A stretch of 64,000 bases of DNA, from the NCBI RefSeq assembly GCF_947494555.1, contig NZ_CANLVF010000004.1, positions 62,001 through 126,000 of the forward strand, written 5' to 3'. Made by a program: the position numbers and the translations under genes. Positions 23,893 through 30,103 of the stretch are shown here, in pieces (positions within the stretch are counted from its first letter, which is position 1; each line of letters opens with the position of its first letter). The stretch comes from an uncultured Roseibium sp. (lineage in GTDB: Bacteria; Pseudomonadota; Alphaproteobacteria; Rhizobiales; Stappiaceae). Below the pieces are notes generated by a model that was not told where the DNA came from, ran no database searches, and worked only from the letters and a program-made list of their open reading frames with translations.

Positions 23893-24264
23893 GTGACACC
23901 GCTTGGAGCAAAAATTCGGGAACTTAGGTCAAAACGGGGCGTATCGCTGAAAGAAATGGCGGCAGCTCTTTCGGTTTCGAGCGCTTATCTGTCAGCGCTG
24001 GAACACGGCAAACGCGGTAAACCGACATGGTTTCTCGTCCAGCGGATCATCACTTATTTCAACGTGATCTGGGACGAAGCGGAAGAAATCCAGCGGCTGG
24101 CGGAACTGTCGGATCCCCGGATCACGATCGACACGGCAGGCATGCATCCAAAGGCAACGGAACTCGCCAATCAACTGTCGCTGAAGATCAACGTATTGTC
24201 CGAGGACTCCCTTCACGCCCTGCTGCACCAGCTTCGCGTGGCCGCAGCAAAGGACGATGTGTGA
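23893..24264 (+). CDS. Short XRE-family helix-turn-helix regulator
   Basis: 124 residues. The HTH_3 domain is plain: LGAKIRELRSKRGVSLKEMA, then LSVSSAYLSALEHGKRGKP. The C-terminal half (DPRITIDTAGMHPKATELAN) is helical and probably a dimerisation part. The true start is GTG 23893 with AAGG upstream, 4 nt after the smr stop; the frame extends upstream into smr but that overlap is not coding. Position behind mltA-smr is conserved in Rhizobiales. Target genes unknown. Confidence 0.88.
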   Translation: MTPLGAKIRELRSKRGVSLKEMAAALSVSSAYLSALEHGKRGKPTWFLVQRIITYFNVIWDEAEEIQRLAELSDPRITIDTAGMHPKATELANQLSLKINVLSEDSLHALLHQLRVAAAKDDV

Positions 24265-24337
24265 ACGACTCGTCGATATTACGTAGTTTGCGCACAAATA
24301 CGGCTCACAATTGAGTGGATCCAACGCTCTCCAACGC

Positions 24338-24901
24338 TTAGCAATCTGCTGAGGCTGGCTCCAACCGGCTGCCGATGCGGGAAAAGTACCGGGAAACAAG
24401 GACGTAAGTCACCCGGTTGTGTATGTTCGCCCGCGGCACAACATCGAAAGCCCAGTCGTTGCTTCGCAAATTGCGACCGAATTCCGAATTGACAATCAAA
24501 TAGTGGTTTTCCGGAACCTTGATCAATGCCTTGTCACCAAATTGCGCTCGGGCGGCGACAAGCCAATCTTCCTTTGCAACAAATGTTCGTTCGTCGATCG
24601 CGTATCCATTGATACCTAGCGAAAAGGCTTGGCCTTCGGTGGCACTGACTTTGCGGATAAAGTTACGTTTGGGTTCGGTTCCGCTGAAGGTCACCATATC
24701 TCCGACGCAGACGGTCCAGGCAGCTTGTCTTGCATAGATCGTTTTGGTTTCCAATCCTTCGATAGTCCTGGCAAAACTCGTCGGAAGCGGATTGAACACA
24801 TGTTGAAGGGCCGCGAGTACGGCAAGAAGGATAAGCCAGGGAATGACGCCCATCCAGGTCTGCCGGTCGATGTTTGGCCAACTGGTTGGTAATAGCTGCA
24901 T
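24338..24901 (-). CDS. Signal-peptidase-I-like (S26 fold) membrane protein, nucleophile apparently missing
   Basis: 187 residues: one N-terminal membrane helix (~20-38, VIPWLILLAVLAALQHVF), then a periplasmic domain that resembles S26 signal peptidases. Matching blocks are VGDMVTFSG, the NFIRKVSATEGQ strand with the general-base lysine, VPENHYLIVNSEFGRNLRSN and RANIHNRVTYVL. At the place of the catalytic S-x-P motif I read GLETKTIYARQ, with no serine, so activity as a normal signal peptidase is doubtful. ATG 24901 starts directly after the TAA of the TPR gene, so it is the third gene of the AAA-TPR-S26 operon. A role in processing or holding a partner is inference. Confidence 0.65.
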   Translation of the reverse strand: MQLLPTSWPNIDRQTWMGVIPWLILLAVLAALQHVFNPLPTSFARTIEGLETKTIYARQAAWTVCVGDMVTFSGTEPKRNFIRKVSATEGQAFSLGINGYAIDERTFVAKEDWLVAARAQFGDKALIKVPENHYLIVNSEFGRNLRSNDWAFDVVPRANIHNRVTYVLVSRYFSRIGSRLEPASADC

Positions 24902-24902
24902 T

Positions 24903-25841
24903 TTAGTATCTCTTCAGCTTTACTTCTTTCTTGCGCTCGTAAACAAACTTAAAATAATCTGGATATTGAATGAAGAAGTATGAAAACAAAAATCCATAAA
25001 ATAAGTACCGACCATTCAACAATTCAAAATTCAAAAATATATTTATAATTTTTATAATAAAAATATGTGCCTCGAATCCGACAATACCTACGAATAGCAT
25101 AAAGGGCACGGCTAGAAGCAGTCCAAAGTATGAATTTGCTAAATTGACAAGCATCACAACTGCATTCAGAAGATAGAACTGTGGCATATAGTATATGTAG
25201 CTCACAGCAATGAGAGCCCGCATATGCCTATCACCCGGCGAGAGTCTTAGCGCGAGATGTGCGAATTTCCGCGCCGTTGCCAACTTCCCCAGCTGCAAGC
25301 TGTTCTGAGCAAGTGTTTTGTTGAGCTCAAAGTTATCAGGATAAAACGGATGAGCATCTACCATATACTGCTGGGCACGGAATACATTGCACGTTTTATG
25401 GTAGAACAATCCGAGATTCAGTTTTTCCTCCGGGTCGAGATCATTATCACCCAAGTTTTCCAGATACTTGCTTAACTTCTGTGTCTTTCCACGCAAAGCA
25501 TCCAAGCAAAACTGCATGTTTTCGATGCGGCCATAATGGTCCGGAAAATCTGCCTTGAATTTCTCAAGGACCTTTTTTGCTTCACGCTTTCGCCGCAGAT
25601 GTGCGAGTGCGTCGAACTCCCACTCCCGCAGAATCACGTTTTCCGGATGCTGTCGAAGAACATCTCTGCAGATGCGAAGTGCTTCCTTGTAATTCTCCGC
25701 CTCCGATTCAATCTTGATCCGCAAGTTCCAGCAGCTGATATCGTCCGGCTTCTTTTCCAGGATCTCGTTGACGAGACGCCGGGCCCCATCGAAGTTTTTG
25801 GCTTCAAGCAAGGCTCGAGCTGTGTTGAGTGAATAGGCCAC
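24903..25841 (-). CDS. TPR protein with C-terminal membrane segment
   Basis: 312 residues. Residues 1-215 are tetratricopeptide-like helical repeats (AKNFDGARRLVNEILEKKPD, NYKEALRICRDVLRQHPENV, LGKLATARKFAHLALRLSPG). Residues ~218-312 hold two or three very hydrophobic helices rich in Phe, Ile and Tyr, ending in a basic tail (YERKKEVKLKRY). The TPR part should face the cytosol where the AAA partner is. The GTG at 25841 has GAGGTGA upstream and lies 3 nt after the AAA stop. The 3' third is much more AT-rich than its surroundings. No specific family is recognised. Confidence 0.8.
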   Translation of the reverse strand: MAYSLNTARALLEAKNFDGARRLVNEILEKKPDDISCWNLRIKIESEAENYKEALRICRDVLRQHPENVILREWEFDALAHLRRKREAKKVLEKFKADFPDHYGRIENMQFCLDALRGKTQKLSKYLENLGDNDLDPEEKLNLGLFYHKTCNVFRAQQYMVDAHPFYPDNFELNKTLAQNSLQLGKLATARKFAHLALRLSPGDRHMRALIAVSYIYYMPQFYLLNAVVMLVNLANSYFGLLLAVPFMLFVGIVGFEAHIFIIKIINIFLNFELLNGRYLFYGFLFSYFFIQYPDYFKFVYERKKEVKLKRY

Positions 25842-25844
25842 AGC

Positions 25845-27020
25845 TCACCTCGCATATTTTTTCAGGAAGACAGACAGATCGTCATACATGCCGCTCGAAT
25901 TTGCATATTCCGCAAAATTTCGAGCCTGACCCAGCCATTCACCAACGGAGGACTTAACCTCCTGAGACGCTTCCTGGAAGTGCGCGGTTGACAAGGGAAC
26001 AAGCGCCTCGACGGACGGGCTTTCTTCAATGGCAATATCGACCGCAGTGTCGACCAGGGCACTGAGATCAGCGCCTGAAAATCCTGTGCAACTTTCGATA
26101 ATCCGCTCGATATCCAGGCTTTCGGAAACAGGCCGGTCTTTCAGAAGGCCATCCAGAATGAACTTTCGGGCGACCCGGTCCGGAGGCGGTACGAACAGCG
26201 TCCGGTCAAAGCGCCCCGGGCGTCGGAAGGCGGAATCGATCGACCAGGGCACATTGGTCGCCCCAAGAAAAAGAACGCCTTCATTGTCGCTAAAACCATC
26301 CATTTCGGTCAGCAACGCAGAGACCGTGGTATTGACCCTGGCACTGCTTTCAAACTGACGTTTTTGTGCCAGTGCTTCGATCTCATCAAAAAACAGGACA
26401 ACCGGACGAGATGCTCGTGCCTCCTGAAAGATCTGCGCAATCCTCTTCTCGGCATTCCCGACATACTGGTCGAGAACGTCCGCCGCGCGAACATTTTGAA
26501 ATGTCGCTTTGCATTCAAACGCAAGGGCACGCGCGAGCATGGTCTTGCCGCAACCGGGTGGGCCGTACATCAACACGCCACCACCGGCCTTTCGTTTGAA
26601 CCGGTCGAACAACGCCTTCTTGTTCTGAAAGGGATTTATGATTTTGCGGCGCACTTGTTTCTTGACATTTTCGAGCCCGCCGATGTCGTCGAATGTGATG
26701 CTGACAGATGGATCCGAGACCGGAACAGAGGAACGATCCATGGGAATGACGTTGTCCGAAAGCTTCGGCGCCGGCACTTTGTGCCAACCTTCAGCCAACT
26801 CCAATGCATCCGCCTTTCTCAAAAGGGTGGCAGCCCTTGCTCTCAATTCCGCGTTTGAAACCAGACCCGGCTCAATCTGGCCGAGCCCATCAACGATGAC
26901 GCTGCTGTCCGGAGCCTGTTCCAGTAAAACCAGTACGGCCCGCATCGCGCCATCGTTCGACCCGTTTTGAGCGACAAGGTCGATAAGCGATTGAATATCT
27001 TCAGGAATATCTCGCTGCAA
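25845..27020 (-). CDS. Cdc48/Vps4/Msp1-like single-domain AAA ATPase
   Basis: 391 residues. A helical N-terminal part (~1-95), then one classic AAA domain: FDDIGGLENVKKQVRRKI, Walker A GPPGCGKT (153-160), aromatic pore loop QYVGNAEKRI (~185-194), Walker B LFFDEIE (~209-215), and a second region of homology with NVPWSIDSAFRRPGRFDR holding two arginine fingers. All catalytic parts are present, so it should form an active substrate-threading hexamer. It has no protease, zinc or second ATPase domain and is not FtsH. The start is TTG 27020 with TGAGGTGA upstream; the next ATG lies within the N-terminal domain. First gene of the AAA-TPR-S26 operon. Confidence 0.85.
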   Translation of the reverse strand: MQRDIPEDIQSLIDLVAQNGSNDGAMRAVLVLLEQAPDSSVIVDGLGQIEPGLVSNAELRARAATLLRKADALELAEGWHKVPAPKLSDNVIPMDRSSVPVSDPSVSITFDDIGGLENVKKQVRRKIINPFQNKKALFDRFKRKAGGGVLMYGPPGCGKTMLARALAFECKATFQNVRAADVLDQYVGNAEKRIAQIFQEARASRPVVLFFDEIEALAQKRQFESSARVNTTVSALLTEMDGFSDNEGVLFLGATNVPWSIDSAFRRPGRFDRTLFVPPPDRVARKFILDGLLKDRPVSESLDIERIIESCTGFSGADLSALVDTAVDIAIEESPSVEALVPLSTAHFQEASQEVKSSVGEWLGQARNFAEYANSSGMYDDLSVFLKKYAR

Positions 27021-27247
27021 CTGGCTTCACCTCACTTGGCGAGAACGATACAGCACTCGCGAAGAATCCAACCCGGTTTTGATGTCGAGACCTTCTTAGA
27101 GCGATTTAGTAAAAAGAAACTTCAACTTAAGAGCGAAATGCAACGTTTGTTTTTTACGTGCCTCAATGACGACACTCAGATTTCCGTGTCCTTCCGGCGC
27201 GATCCCTATATAACCGCATCTGACCGCCGCCCGAGACGAATGACTTT
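27021..27247. promoter_or_regulatory. Divergent promoter region between the AAA operon and glnD
   Basis: 227 bp separate the leftward AAA-TPR-S26 operon from rightward glnD. It is AT-richer than the flanks around 27090-27160. A TATATAAC sequence near 27208-27215 could be the -10 element of glnD. No convincing -35 or operator is visible for either side. Confidence 0.3.
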
Positions 27248-30103
27248 TTGACGGACTTTCAAACACTCATGCACCCAAGCGAAGAAGATCTTGCCGGACT
27301 GATCGATTCTGACGACCTGCGGTCCCGTCTGAAAGCACTAACCGCCGACAGCGAGGGCGACGGGTCGGACAGCAAGATCAGGGCAAAGGTTCTTGGGCTG
27401 TTGAAGTCTGAGGTCAAATCCGCGCGCGACCGCGTGAAAGACAAACTGGACGAAGACGGCGGCGGGCTGCTCTGCGCGGCCCGGCTGTCACATGTTCAGG
27501 ACGAGTTGATCCGCGTGATTTACGATTTTGCGGTTCAACATGTCTATCGGGTCAAGAACCCGTCAGCGGCAGAACGCATGTCGGTTGCCGCAGTTGGCGG
27601 GTACGGACGCGGAACACTTGCCCCGGGATCCGACATCGATCTCCTGTTCATCCTGCCTTACAAGCAGACCCCGTGGGGCGAGCAGGTGGTCGAATACATC
27701 CTCTATATGCTCTGGGACCTTGGCTTCAAGGTGGGTCATGCAACGCGCAATCTCGACGAGTGCATCCGGCTGGCAAAAGCGGACATGACGATCCGGACAG
27801 CTGTTCTTGAAGCGCGGTATATCTGGGGTGACGTTGAGCTTTTTGAGAGCCTTGTCAAACGCTTCGATTCCGACGTCATGAGCGGAACAAGCTCTGAATT
27901 CATCGCTGCAAAGCTGCTTGAACGCGACGAAAGGCACCGGCGCCAAGGAACGTCGCGCTACCTTGTGGAGCCCAACATCAAGGAAGGAAAGGGAGGCCTT
28001 CGGGACCTCAACACGCTTTTCTGGATTGCCAAATATCACTACCGGGTCGACCGTCAGTCCGAGCTCGTCAAGAAGGGTGTTCTCACACGGTCCGAATACG
28101 CAAGGTTCGTCAAATCAGAGGACTTCCTGTGGGCCGTGCGCTGTCATCTGCACTTTCTCACCGGGCGTCCGGAAGAACGCCTGGCGTTTGAATTCCAGCG
28201 CGAGATCGCGATCCGCCTCGGCTATACGCAGCATCCCGGCATGCGCGACGTCGAGCGCTTCATGAAGCATTATTTCCTTGTCGCAAAAGATGTCGGCGAT
28301 CTCACGCGCATCATCTGCGCGGCGCTGGAGGAAGAACACGTCAAGGAACCCCGGGGCAAGGGGTTTTCCGGGATGATGCGGCGCCTACGCAGCGGGCGCA
28401 TGACAGACAGCGTAAAACCGGTCAAGGGGGCCCCGGGTTTCGTTGTCGAGAACAATCGGCTCAATGTTACCAACGACAGGGTTTTCGAGAGCGATCCTGC
28501 CAACCTGCTTCGCGTGTTCCAGCTGGCTGACAAACACGACTACAATCTGCACCCAAGGCTGACGCGGCTGATCAGGCACTCGCTCAAACTTGTCGACAGC
28601 GACCTTCGAAACGATCCGGAGGCCAACCGACTGTTTCTGTCGATCCTGACGTCACGCAATGTTCCGGAAAAGATCCTGCGCAAGATGAACGAAACCGGCC
28701 TGCTCGGGCGGTTCGTGCCGGATTTCGGCAAAGTCGTCGCGATGATGCAGTTCAACATGTATCATCACTATACGGTCGATGAGCATCTCATCCGTTCGAT
28801 TGGCGTGCTGGCGGAAATCGAACGCGGCAATTCCGGCGAAGATCATCCGCTTTCCACCGATCTGATCCTGCAGCTGCAAAACCGGAAAGTCCTTTATGTC
28901 ACCATGTTCCTTCACGACATCGCGAAGGGACGCCCTGAGGATCATTCCATTGCCGGTGCAAAGGTCGCCCGCAAGGTCTGTCCCCGCCTTGGCTTGAACG
29001 ATGCGGAGACAGAAACGGTCGCCTGGCTGATTGAGCATCATCTCGACATGAGCACCATCGCCCAGTCGCGCGATCTCAACGACCGCAAGACAATTACCGA
29101 TTTTGCAAACACGGTTCAGTCGCTCGAACGCCTCAAGATGCTTCTTATCCTGACCGTTGCGGACATCCGGGCGGTGGGGCCAGGCGTTTTCAATGGTTGG
29201 AAAGGCCAGTTGCTGCGGACCCTCTATTACGCCACCGAGCCTCATTTGTCCGGCGGGCATTCAAAAATGTCCCACAAGGAGACGATCGAGGCGGCCAAGT
29301 CCGAGCTTGTGTCCAAACTCGAGCACTGGACCAAAAAGGACCGCAACGCCTATCTCAAGCGGCACTATGCAGCCTACTGGCTGCGCACCGAACCGGAGCG
29401 TTTGCTCACGCATGCCGAATTGCTGCACAAGGCGGACAAAGGCGACAAGCGGCTTGCTTTCGACGTCATTCCGCGTGCATTCGAGGGCGTTACCGAACTC
29501 AACATCATGGCGCCCGATCATCCGCGGCTTCTGTCGACCATTGCCGGAGCGTGTTTTTCGACGGGCGCAAACATTGTCGACGCGCAAATCGACACCACGA
29601 CGGACGGCTTTGCCATTGATACGATTTTCATCGGCCGGGAACTTCCAGACGATGACGACGAGCGCCGGCGCGGAGAACGGATCACGCGACTGATCCGCAC
29701 GACCCTGCGCGGCGATGAGCGTCTCCCGGAACCCGTGACGAAGAAAAACACGATGAAAAGCCGCGTCAAGGCGTTCAAGGTGGCGACCGAGATCCTAGTC
29801 AACAATTCCCTGTCGGACGACTACACGGTGCTGGAAATCTCCGGGCTCGACAGACCGGGTCTGCTTTACGATCTGACCAGGTCCATTGCGACACTCAACC
29901 TGAATATCGGTTCGGCCCATATTTCGACCTTCGGTGAAAAAGCCGTCGATGTATTTTATGTGACAGACCTGACCGGGCAGAAGATTTCCAATATCGGCCG
30001 CCAGGAAATCATCCGGGAACGCCTCGCAGATGCTGTCAAAGGCCGTCTGGAACTCGATCCGGCAGCGCCTGTGTCACGAAAAGTCCAGCGTCAGGCCTCT
30101 TGA
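27248..30103 (+). CDS. glnD: Bifunctional PII uridylyltransferase/uridylyl-removing enzyme
   Basis: 951 residues. Order: nucleotidyltransferase domain (GGYGRGTLAPGSDIDLLFIL, ~117-136, with the two metal-binding aspartates), GlnE-like helical region, HD phosphohydrolase (FLHDIAKGRPEDHS, with a later IEHHLDMS), and two C-terminal ACT domains (~720-920) that sense glutamine. It adds UMP to PII proteins when nitrogen is scarce and removes it when glutamine is plentiful, steering glutamine synthetase and nitrogen regulation. The start is uncertain: TTG 27248 is used, ATG 27269 is possible, and an ATG at 27240 runs into TGA after three codons next to a T run. murJ follows after 32 bp. Confidence 0.95.
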   Translation: MTDFQTLMHPSEEDLAGLIDSDDLRSRLKALTADSEGDGSDSKIRAKVLGLLKSEVKSARDRVKDKLDEDGGGLLCAARLSHVQDELIRVIYDFAVQHVYRVKNPSAAERMSVAAVGGYGRGTLAPGSDIDLLFILPYKQTPWGEQVVEYILYMLWDLGFKVGHATRNLDECIRLAKADMTIRTAVLEARYIWGDVELFESLVKRFDSDVMSGTSSEFIAAKLLERDERHRRQGTSRYLVEPNIKEGKGGLRDLNTLFWIAKYHYRVDRQSELVKKGVLTRSEYARFVKSEDFLWAVRCHLHFLTGRPEERLAFEFQREIAIRLGYTQHPGMRDVERFMKHYFLVAKDVGDLTRIICAALEEEHVKEPRGKGFSGMMRRLRSGRMTDSVKPVKGAPGFVVENNRLNVTNDRVFESDPANLLRVFQLADKHDYNLHPRLTRLIRHSLKLVDSDLRNDPEANRLFLSILTSRNVPEKILRKMNETGLLGRFVPDFGKVVAMMQFNMYHHYTVDEHLIRSIGVLAEIERGNSGEDHPLSTDLILQLQNRKVLYVTMFLHDIAKGRPEDHSIAGAKVARKVCPRLGLNDAETETVAWLIEHHLDMSTIAQSRDLNDRKTITDFANTVQSLERLKMLLILTVADIRAVGPGVFNGWKGQLLRTLYYATEPHLSGGHSKMSHKETIEAAKSELVSKLEHWTKKDRNAYLKRHYAAYWLRTEPERLLTHAELLHKADKGDKRLAFDVIPRAFEGVTELNIMAPDHPRLLSTIAGACFSTGANIVDAQIDTTTDGFAIDTIFIGRELPDDDDERRRGERITRLIRTTLRGDERLPEPVTKKNTMKSRVKAFKVATEILVNNSLSDDYTVLEISGLDRPGLLYDLTRSIATLNLNIGSAHISTFGEKAVDVFYVTDLTGQKISNIGRQEIIRERLADAVKGRLELDPAAPVSRKVQRQAS

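Follow-up and report, generated by a model that had tools for sequence, protein, structure and literature searches.

A widespread gene pair for an AAA ATPase and a membrane TPR protein, with a lineage-specific signal-peptidase-like addition in Roseibium

Three closely packed genes in the 7.0 Mb genome of an uncultured Roseibium sp. are built around a conserved and widespread pair, an AAA ATPase gene followed by the gene of a tetratricopeptide repeat (TPR) protein with a hydrophobic C-terminus. The third gene, whose product shows distant similarity to signal peptidases of the S26 type, is a lineage-specific addition to this pair. The genes lie in a window of 64,000 nucleotides (nt; contig NZ_CANLVF010000004.1, positions 62,001 to 126,000), the whole stretch of DNA analysed, on its minus strand and in the order AAA ATPase (25845-27020), TPR protein (24903-25841) and S26-like protein (24338-24901), separated by 3 nt (25842-25844) and 1 nt (24902). 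A preliminary description of this DNA, made from the sequence alone, had given the same three open reading frames (ORFs) and the same gaps; the observation is real and was correctly described. It had also stated that no named system was known with this composition. None was found in the literature, but a pair of this kind is mentioned in one sentence of a published paper, and the module reported here is a new variant of it. No functional study of the module was found in the literature searched (in which preprints were not covered and subscription papers were few), and within that literature it is otherwise unstudied. The most likely function for the module, proposed with moderate confidence, is that of a membrane-recruited AAA+ translocase, which would extract or remodel membrane-associated proteins.

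Distribution and genetic organization

Stretches conserved in the family served as patterns to scan 84,980 species genomes, which yielded at least 580 relatives; the best 80 loci were retained for analysis. These span Proteobacteria, Myxococcota, Acidobacteria, Bacteroidota, Planctomycetes, Verrucomicrobia, Cyanobacteria and others, and gene order is deeply conserved among them. A TPR-profile ORF ends 400-2600 nt past the AAA stop codon in 76 of the 80 loci, a tally that set no limit on the ORF start, admitted long ORFs with uncertain starts and did not require a transmembrane (TM) helix. With a limit on the ORF start, such an ORF is found in 72 loci, and 68 of these 72 ORFs have at least one predicted TM helix (TM counts throughout come from a simple Kyte-Doolittle script). 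The loci without a detected TPR partner are L124, L144 (contig ends), L165 and L174. The adjacency of the two genes is beyond chance. In a weaker control, 42 other AAA loci that are mostly FtsH-like by length and have flanks of only 1.5 kb around the AAA match, shorter than those of most family loci, the same profiles gave no match; these profiles, and that of a small membrane protein described below, were built from the family loci themselves, so that the tallies are partly circular. The preliminary description had proposed to examine whether all three genes occur together and stay adjacent: the AAA and TPR genes do, whereas the S26-like gene is lineage-restricted. Its suggestion that a membrane TPR protein recruits the ATPase has a good genomic footing, because a TPR-profile gene follows the AAA gene across many phyla.

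Two layouts can be distinguished by the score of the AAA protein, and the AAA tree separates them (95/90 and 95/92 support). The 26 fused-type loci carry the AAA gene and then a TPR protein mostly of 411-430 residues with mostly three to six predicted TM helices; the partner was detected in 23 of them, with two or more helices in 22 of these 23. The 54 split-type loci have the order AAA protein, small membrane protein, and TPR protein of about 310 residues with mostly one or two predicted TM helices. The small membrane protein has about 127-173 residues and begins ...YxIxDEP; its profile matches in 45 split-type loci (38 under a stricter rule) and in none of the fused-type loci. Of two examples compared with Pfam, one has no match and the other a sub-threshold match to DUF2157. 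Since the membrane part is found either within the TPR protein or in a separate adjoining small gene, this fusion and splitting pattern suggests that the products form one complex.

Several individual loci add to this picture. On a Streptomyces plasmid, which shows the same arrangement, the AAA gene (424 residues) overlaps the TPR gene by 4 nt, and the latter, annotated as a hypothetical protein, has a hydrophobic C-terminal part. On a Bacteroidota contig (L166), one AAA gene is followed by two TPR/multi-TM proteins in succession. In a member of Planctomycetales, where no TPR partner was detected, a 176-residue protein with three predicted membrane helices directly follows the AAA gene (L165:6474-7004). 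Next to an alphaproteobacterial AAA member on the same contig as L124 (L106:4287-5678), neither a TPR gene nor a small membrane gene was detected.

A paper on PSP (mSystems 2024, PMC11237479) contains one sentence on bacterial 'VPS4-like' AAA genes beside the gene of a TPR protein with six TM helices (6TM). This pair is probably the fused-type module described here, and the example given, ACB74714.1, is likely a member of the same AAA family. Both have a single AAA gene adjoining a TPR/multi-TM gene in several bacterial lineages. In contrast to the pair of that sentence, two genes share the membrane part in most of the Proteobacteria, Myxococcota and Acidobacteria retrieved, where the TPR protein has a tail ending in F or Y, and the clade of the window lacks the small gene and has the S26-like gene. 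The TPR partner in the window is modelled with a two-helix hairpin instead of a 6TM domain, and the window is therefore a variant and not a plain member of the AAA + TPR/6TM pair.

The AAA ATPase

The AAA protein has 391 residues, with a TTG start, and matches Pfam AAA (3.8e-40) and AAA_lid_3 (1e-7). It comprises an N-domain of residues 1-109 (26694-27020, minus strand), placed before F110, an AAA domain with its lid at about residues 110-335, and a C-terminal extension ending ...YDDLSVFLKKYAR. As already described, it is intact, with Walker A, Walker B, sensor-1, pore-loop and arginine residues all present. An alignment of 64 of the 79 listed family proteins (duplicates and short copies excluded, long ORFs cut to 450 residues) shows that K159, E213, N256, R267, R270 and R273 are invariant in all 64, the window protein included, and that the pore-loop residue is aromatic (Y, W or F) in every one. 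Because of this invariance and of the aromatic pore residue, an active threading ring would be expected. The N-domain is 109-112 residues long in the four members of the window clade, versus 145-181 in the other 60 aligned proteins, some of whose starts were cut at 450 residues. The Pfam family TPR_19 matches 29 of the 64 proteins, and in all three examples whose coordinates were checked the match sits in the N-domain.

Among known ATPases, p97/Cdc48 (D2 domain) ranks first among solved sequences in both phmmer and profile searches, although double-AAA chains score twice there, and CDC48 is the best NCBIfam model for the window protein (205.7 bits), ahead of PAN (199.2), FtsH (186.6) and CdvC/Vps4 (154.4). 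The present family differs from p97/Cdc48 in having one AAA domain and not two, and a TPR-like N-domain in many members. FtsH itself was rejected as an identity, the AAA protein ending soon after the lid and having no TM helix by hydropathy. No M41 zinc protease match to the window protein is among the matches listed (25 of 36 families), and in the tree the FtsH-type proteins of the host itself are placed outside the family. The window protein is likewise not assigned to Vps4/CdvC, in view of the higher scores of the other three models.

These scores also bear on an ESCRT-like role, in which a Vps4-type disassembly motor, with a TPR/TM protein replacing the ESCRT-III filament subunit, would shape or repair membranes. 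The fused-type loci fit the wording 'VPS4-like' AAA beside TPR+6TM in the sentence of PMC11237479, but in addition to the low rank of CdvC/Vps4 there is no MIT domain among the matches listed (25 of 62 Pfam families) for the 64 AAA members, and PspA genes, present in five of the seven carrier genomes examined, are never beside the module; no PspA/ESCRT adjacency was seen in these seven genomes. This role is unlikely.

The TPR partner and a model for the module

The TPR protein has 312 residues and is matched by several TPR models of Pfam, the best being TPR_19 (7.6e-18). Its AlphaFold model (mean pLDDT 81.9) consists of 13 TPR-type helices, with block pLDDT of 74-98 over residues 1-210, followed by two long C-terminal helices. 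The preliminary description had spoken of a C-terminal hydrophobic bundle; the C-terminus is hydrophobic, but its two helices (220-270 and 277-306) are modelled as hairpin-like. Hydropathy and model together delimit a predicted membrane hairpin at residues 220-306 (24924-25184, minus strand), and if both helices span the membrane, the TPR part and the C-terminal tail would be on the same side. A fold search with the model returned ordinary TPR proteins, consensus TPR first and the TPRs of Pex5 next, and nothing specific; Pex5-peptide structures are among the matches.

The protein ends in the tail YERKKEVKLKRY (24906-24941, minus strand), and its relatives end like KELxxVxLxxDF, a split-type example being KELEQVKLRPDF. 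All 43 aligned split-type partners terminate in F or Y, versus one of 19 fused-type partners, the sequences being related to one another; the 43 were drawn from 49 TPR candidates, which did not include the broken Pseudovibrio copy, whose end is different. TPR domains bind C-terminal peptides, and it seems possible for this reason that the conserved tail is read by the N-domain of the AAA protein.

Taken together, the TPR model, the gene adjacency and the fusion and splitting of the membrane part are consistent with an anchor in the membrane that would recruit the ring and load it. The AAA protein would form a ring that threads polypeptides past its aromatic pore loop, an activity suggested by the conserved residues. 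The TPR partner, held in the inner membrane by its C-terminal hairpin and with solenoid and tail in the cytoplasm, as model and hydropathy suggest, would recruit this ring and present membrane-associated clients to it, and the tail ending in F or Y is a plausible docking peptide, perhaps for the AAA N-domain.

Designs with a comparable logic are known. In Pex1/Pex6 with the tail-anchored Pex26 or Pex15, an AAA motor is recruited by a C-terminally membrane-anchored adaptor; the present module is bacterial and has a single AAA domain. Msp1/ATAD1 is a single AAA protein acting at a membrane, but Msp1 carries its own TM helix, whereas here the anchor would be a separate protein.

Several points weigh against a membrane-recruited translocase, besides the short control loci and the partial circularity of the profiles. 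The hairpin is modelled at low confidence (block pLDDT 56-70). In neither the window AAA protein nor that of L118 does Pfam detect a TPR match in the N-domain, which makes tail docking speculative for these two proteins. Complex formation, ATPase activity, direction of action and client are all points that we infer, and the AAA and TPR proteins could also have soluble clients close to the membrane, or could affect the shape of the membrane. The neighbouring genes of the AAA loci give no functional hint: in a scan of candidate ORFs chosen by length, 80 of the 123 upstream and 84 of the 118 found downstream, an M13 peptidase occurs upstream in six of 80 proteins and every other listed family in at most three of 80 or 84.

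The neighbours also matter for a related idea, that the module helps a single, particular membrane complex to mature or assemble, as its chaperone, with no general role in quality control. MoxR-family and Pex1/Pex6-Pex26 systems follow a similar logic, and the patchy presence in genomes and the self-contained operon would suit a dedicated client, but no constant neighbour that could be this client is found among those scanned. Such a dedicated role is quite unlikely, and a membrane-recruited translocase is preferred.

An accessory cassette in Roseibium

In the AAA tree, three Roseibium copies, one of them in the window, and that of Pseudovibrio denitrificans form one clade (100/100). Nearest to it is L109 (92/89), followed by L118 (Parvularculaceae) with L151 (Hyphomicrobiales); in L118 and L151 the TPR gene comes directly after the AAA gene and the small membrane gene is absent. 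The window clade also lacks this gene, has the shorter AAA N-domain and is the only one in which the S26-like gene was found. Scored with a profile of four AAA proteins, three other genomes of the class reach 437-448 bits and the rest stay below 200 bits (3 of 288 other genomes examined); whole-genome profile searches scored a limited number of candidates per genome, at most six in this one. In Pseudovibrio denitrificans the TPR frame is broken near its 3' end, with the AAA and S26-like genes open (L108:6495-7325).

Within the genus the distribution is accessory. Among 61 genomes (the window's own included; 37 of the genus), the S26-like protein is matched in three, all of the genus, and strong TPR matches occur in the same three, with weak generic ones (E 7e-5 or worse) in five others. 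Some AAA match is present in all 61, but the close relatives, with 95% and 85% identity, are in the same carrier genomes; a more distant one, in a genome from another family of the order (G054), has 60% identity over residues 107-390.

The cassette, carried by three of the 37 genus genomes, has been inserted between genes that in most of the genus are neighbours and have no cassette between them. In the window it is flanked by a convergent XRE gene (ending at 24264) and the divergent glnD (starting at 27248), the neighbour names Smr, XRE and glnD having been taken over from the preliminary description. glnD is matched in all 37 genus genomes, and each of 28 other glnD loci taken from that search of the genus (L046-L073) shows a match to the XRE gene and none to the cassette. 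In five of them the XRE match and the match to the region upstream of glnD are about 76-223 nt apart, versus 2.9 kb in the window, and comparison with the other loci places the approximate extent of the insertion at 24265-27176, from the XRE gene to the glnD upstream region. The 28 loci include that of one carrier, G023, which has its cassette on another contig. The intergenic region between the divergent AAA gene and glnD (27021-27247) is the presumed site of the operon promoter.

The guanine plus cytosine (GC) content falls from 57.7% in the window to 54.2% in the AAA, 52.1% in the S26-like and 43.8% in the TPR gene, and at third codon positions it is 51-59% in the cassette versus 66-73% in three neighbours. 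Between the two closest alleles, those of the window and of the carrier G024, synonymous divergence (YN00) is about 0.18 for the AAA gene, 1.2 for the TPR gene and 1.9 for the S26-like gene, the high values being imprecise and several others undefined through saturation, and 0.18-0.53 for six flanking genes. The jump from the AAA gene to its two partners is about six- to elevenfold (window 24338-25841 versus L041:8927-10430 of G024). This jump suggests that, beside a conserved AAA gene, the membrane parts underwent an exchange of diverged alleles.

Accessory distribution, insertion at different sites, GC content below that of the surroundings and the apparent allele exchange would all suit a conflict or phage-defence system in which the TPR and S26-like parts vary as sensors. 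However, neither of these two proteins has a PADLOC match up to E = 1, and the PADLOC matches of the AAA protein (the best to IetA, 1e-30) cover the AAA region. An IetAS defence system, which pairs an IetA-type AAA protein with an IetS subtilase, was rejected on the same grounds. Among neighbours, each listed PADLOC model matches one or two proteins (25 of 48 and 25 of 65 families), no match was found in 50,697 phage records at 1e-40, and the 10 plasmid records matching at 1e-60 are all from Actinobacteria, with less than 46% identity. The TPR gene is moreover constrained, with a ratio of nonsynonymous to synonymous substitution rates (dN/dS) of about 0.2. A defence or phage origin is thus unsupported by the PADLOC, phage-record, plasmid-record and neighbour scans, and a function in defence has a low probability, below that of a dedicated chaperone.

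The S26-like protein

The third protein is predicted to have one N-terminal TM helix and a distant S26-like domain, whose location would be periplasmic. The S26 reading of the preliminary description stands as a profile similarity, sub-threshold in NCBIfam (signal peptidase I, 4.2e-6, 26.7 bits versus a cut-off of 47 bits) and found over residues 61-172 by hhalign against 26 signal peptidases of the order, with a probability of 90% and an E value of 1.7e-6 that applies to a single comparison. This similarity is distant, and no Pfam family matches the window protein; Pfam S26 is found in one of the four members, at 0.0096. A profile search of the PDB with the protein returned no signal peptidase, the best match being an unrelated hydrolase at E 0.064, and its AlphaFold model, from four sequences, is poor (pLDDT 45.2).

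In signal peptidase I the catalytic residues are a Ser-Lys dyad. By both profile comparison and MAFFT alignment, the position of the catalytic lysine is Arg83 in the window protein, and it is arginine in all four copies, so that the dyad is absent. The product is probably a distant, non-catalytic S26 relative. An envelope protease module, with an active S26-like peptidase cutting clients passed on by the AAA/TPR pair, is very improbable: besides the S26-type profile match it could draw on Ser42 and Thr46, which are invariant in the four copies and fall on the serine and threonine of the signal-peptidase motif in a global profile alignment (37% probability), but MAFFT does not place Ser42 on the nucleophile, the general base is replaced, and hardly any other module carries the gene, for which reason such a peptidase cannot be the core function.

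The preliminary description had included this protein in the machine itself; its distribution does not support a place in the core, the gene having been found in only four genomes (three Roseibium, one Pseudovibrio). A search of 384 further genomes of the class did not find it, and just two of the 80 loci have it, both belonging to these four carriers. An active core peptidase was rejected on this distribution and on the arginine at the lysine position. In the window clade the small membrane subunit is missing and the probably non-catalytic S26-like protein is present instead; in a membrane-recruited translocase it would perhaps be a client-binding subunit.

Implications

A more specific version of this model, which we hold to be rather improbable, is a widespread and unstudied machine for membrane-protein extraction, in which the tail ending in F or Y would be a docking code read by the AAA N-domain, specificity would be set through swapped membrane subunits, and in Roseibium and Pseudovibrio a signal-peptidase fold would have become a receptor that binds clients but has no catalytic activity. 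The docking hypothesis follows directly from the conserved tail and from the short AAA N-domain of the clade, and can be tested.

The textbook example of a bacterial machine that acts on membrane proteins with energy from ATP is FtsH. If the proposed function is correct, the module would have a logic comparable to that of Cdc48, Msp1 or Pex1/Pex6 in two or three genes, simple enough to purify and test, and a protease-free AAA motor with a membrane TPR anchor, present in many phyla, would be a second such machine beside FtsH.

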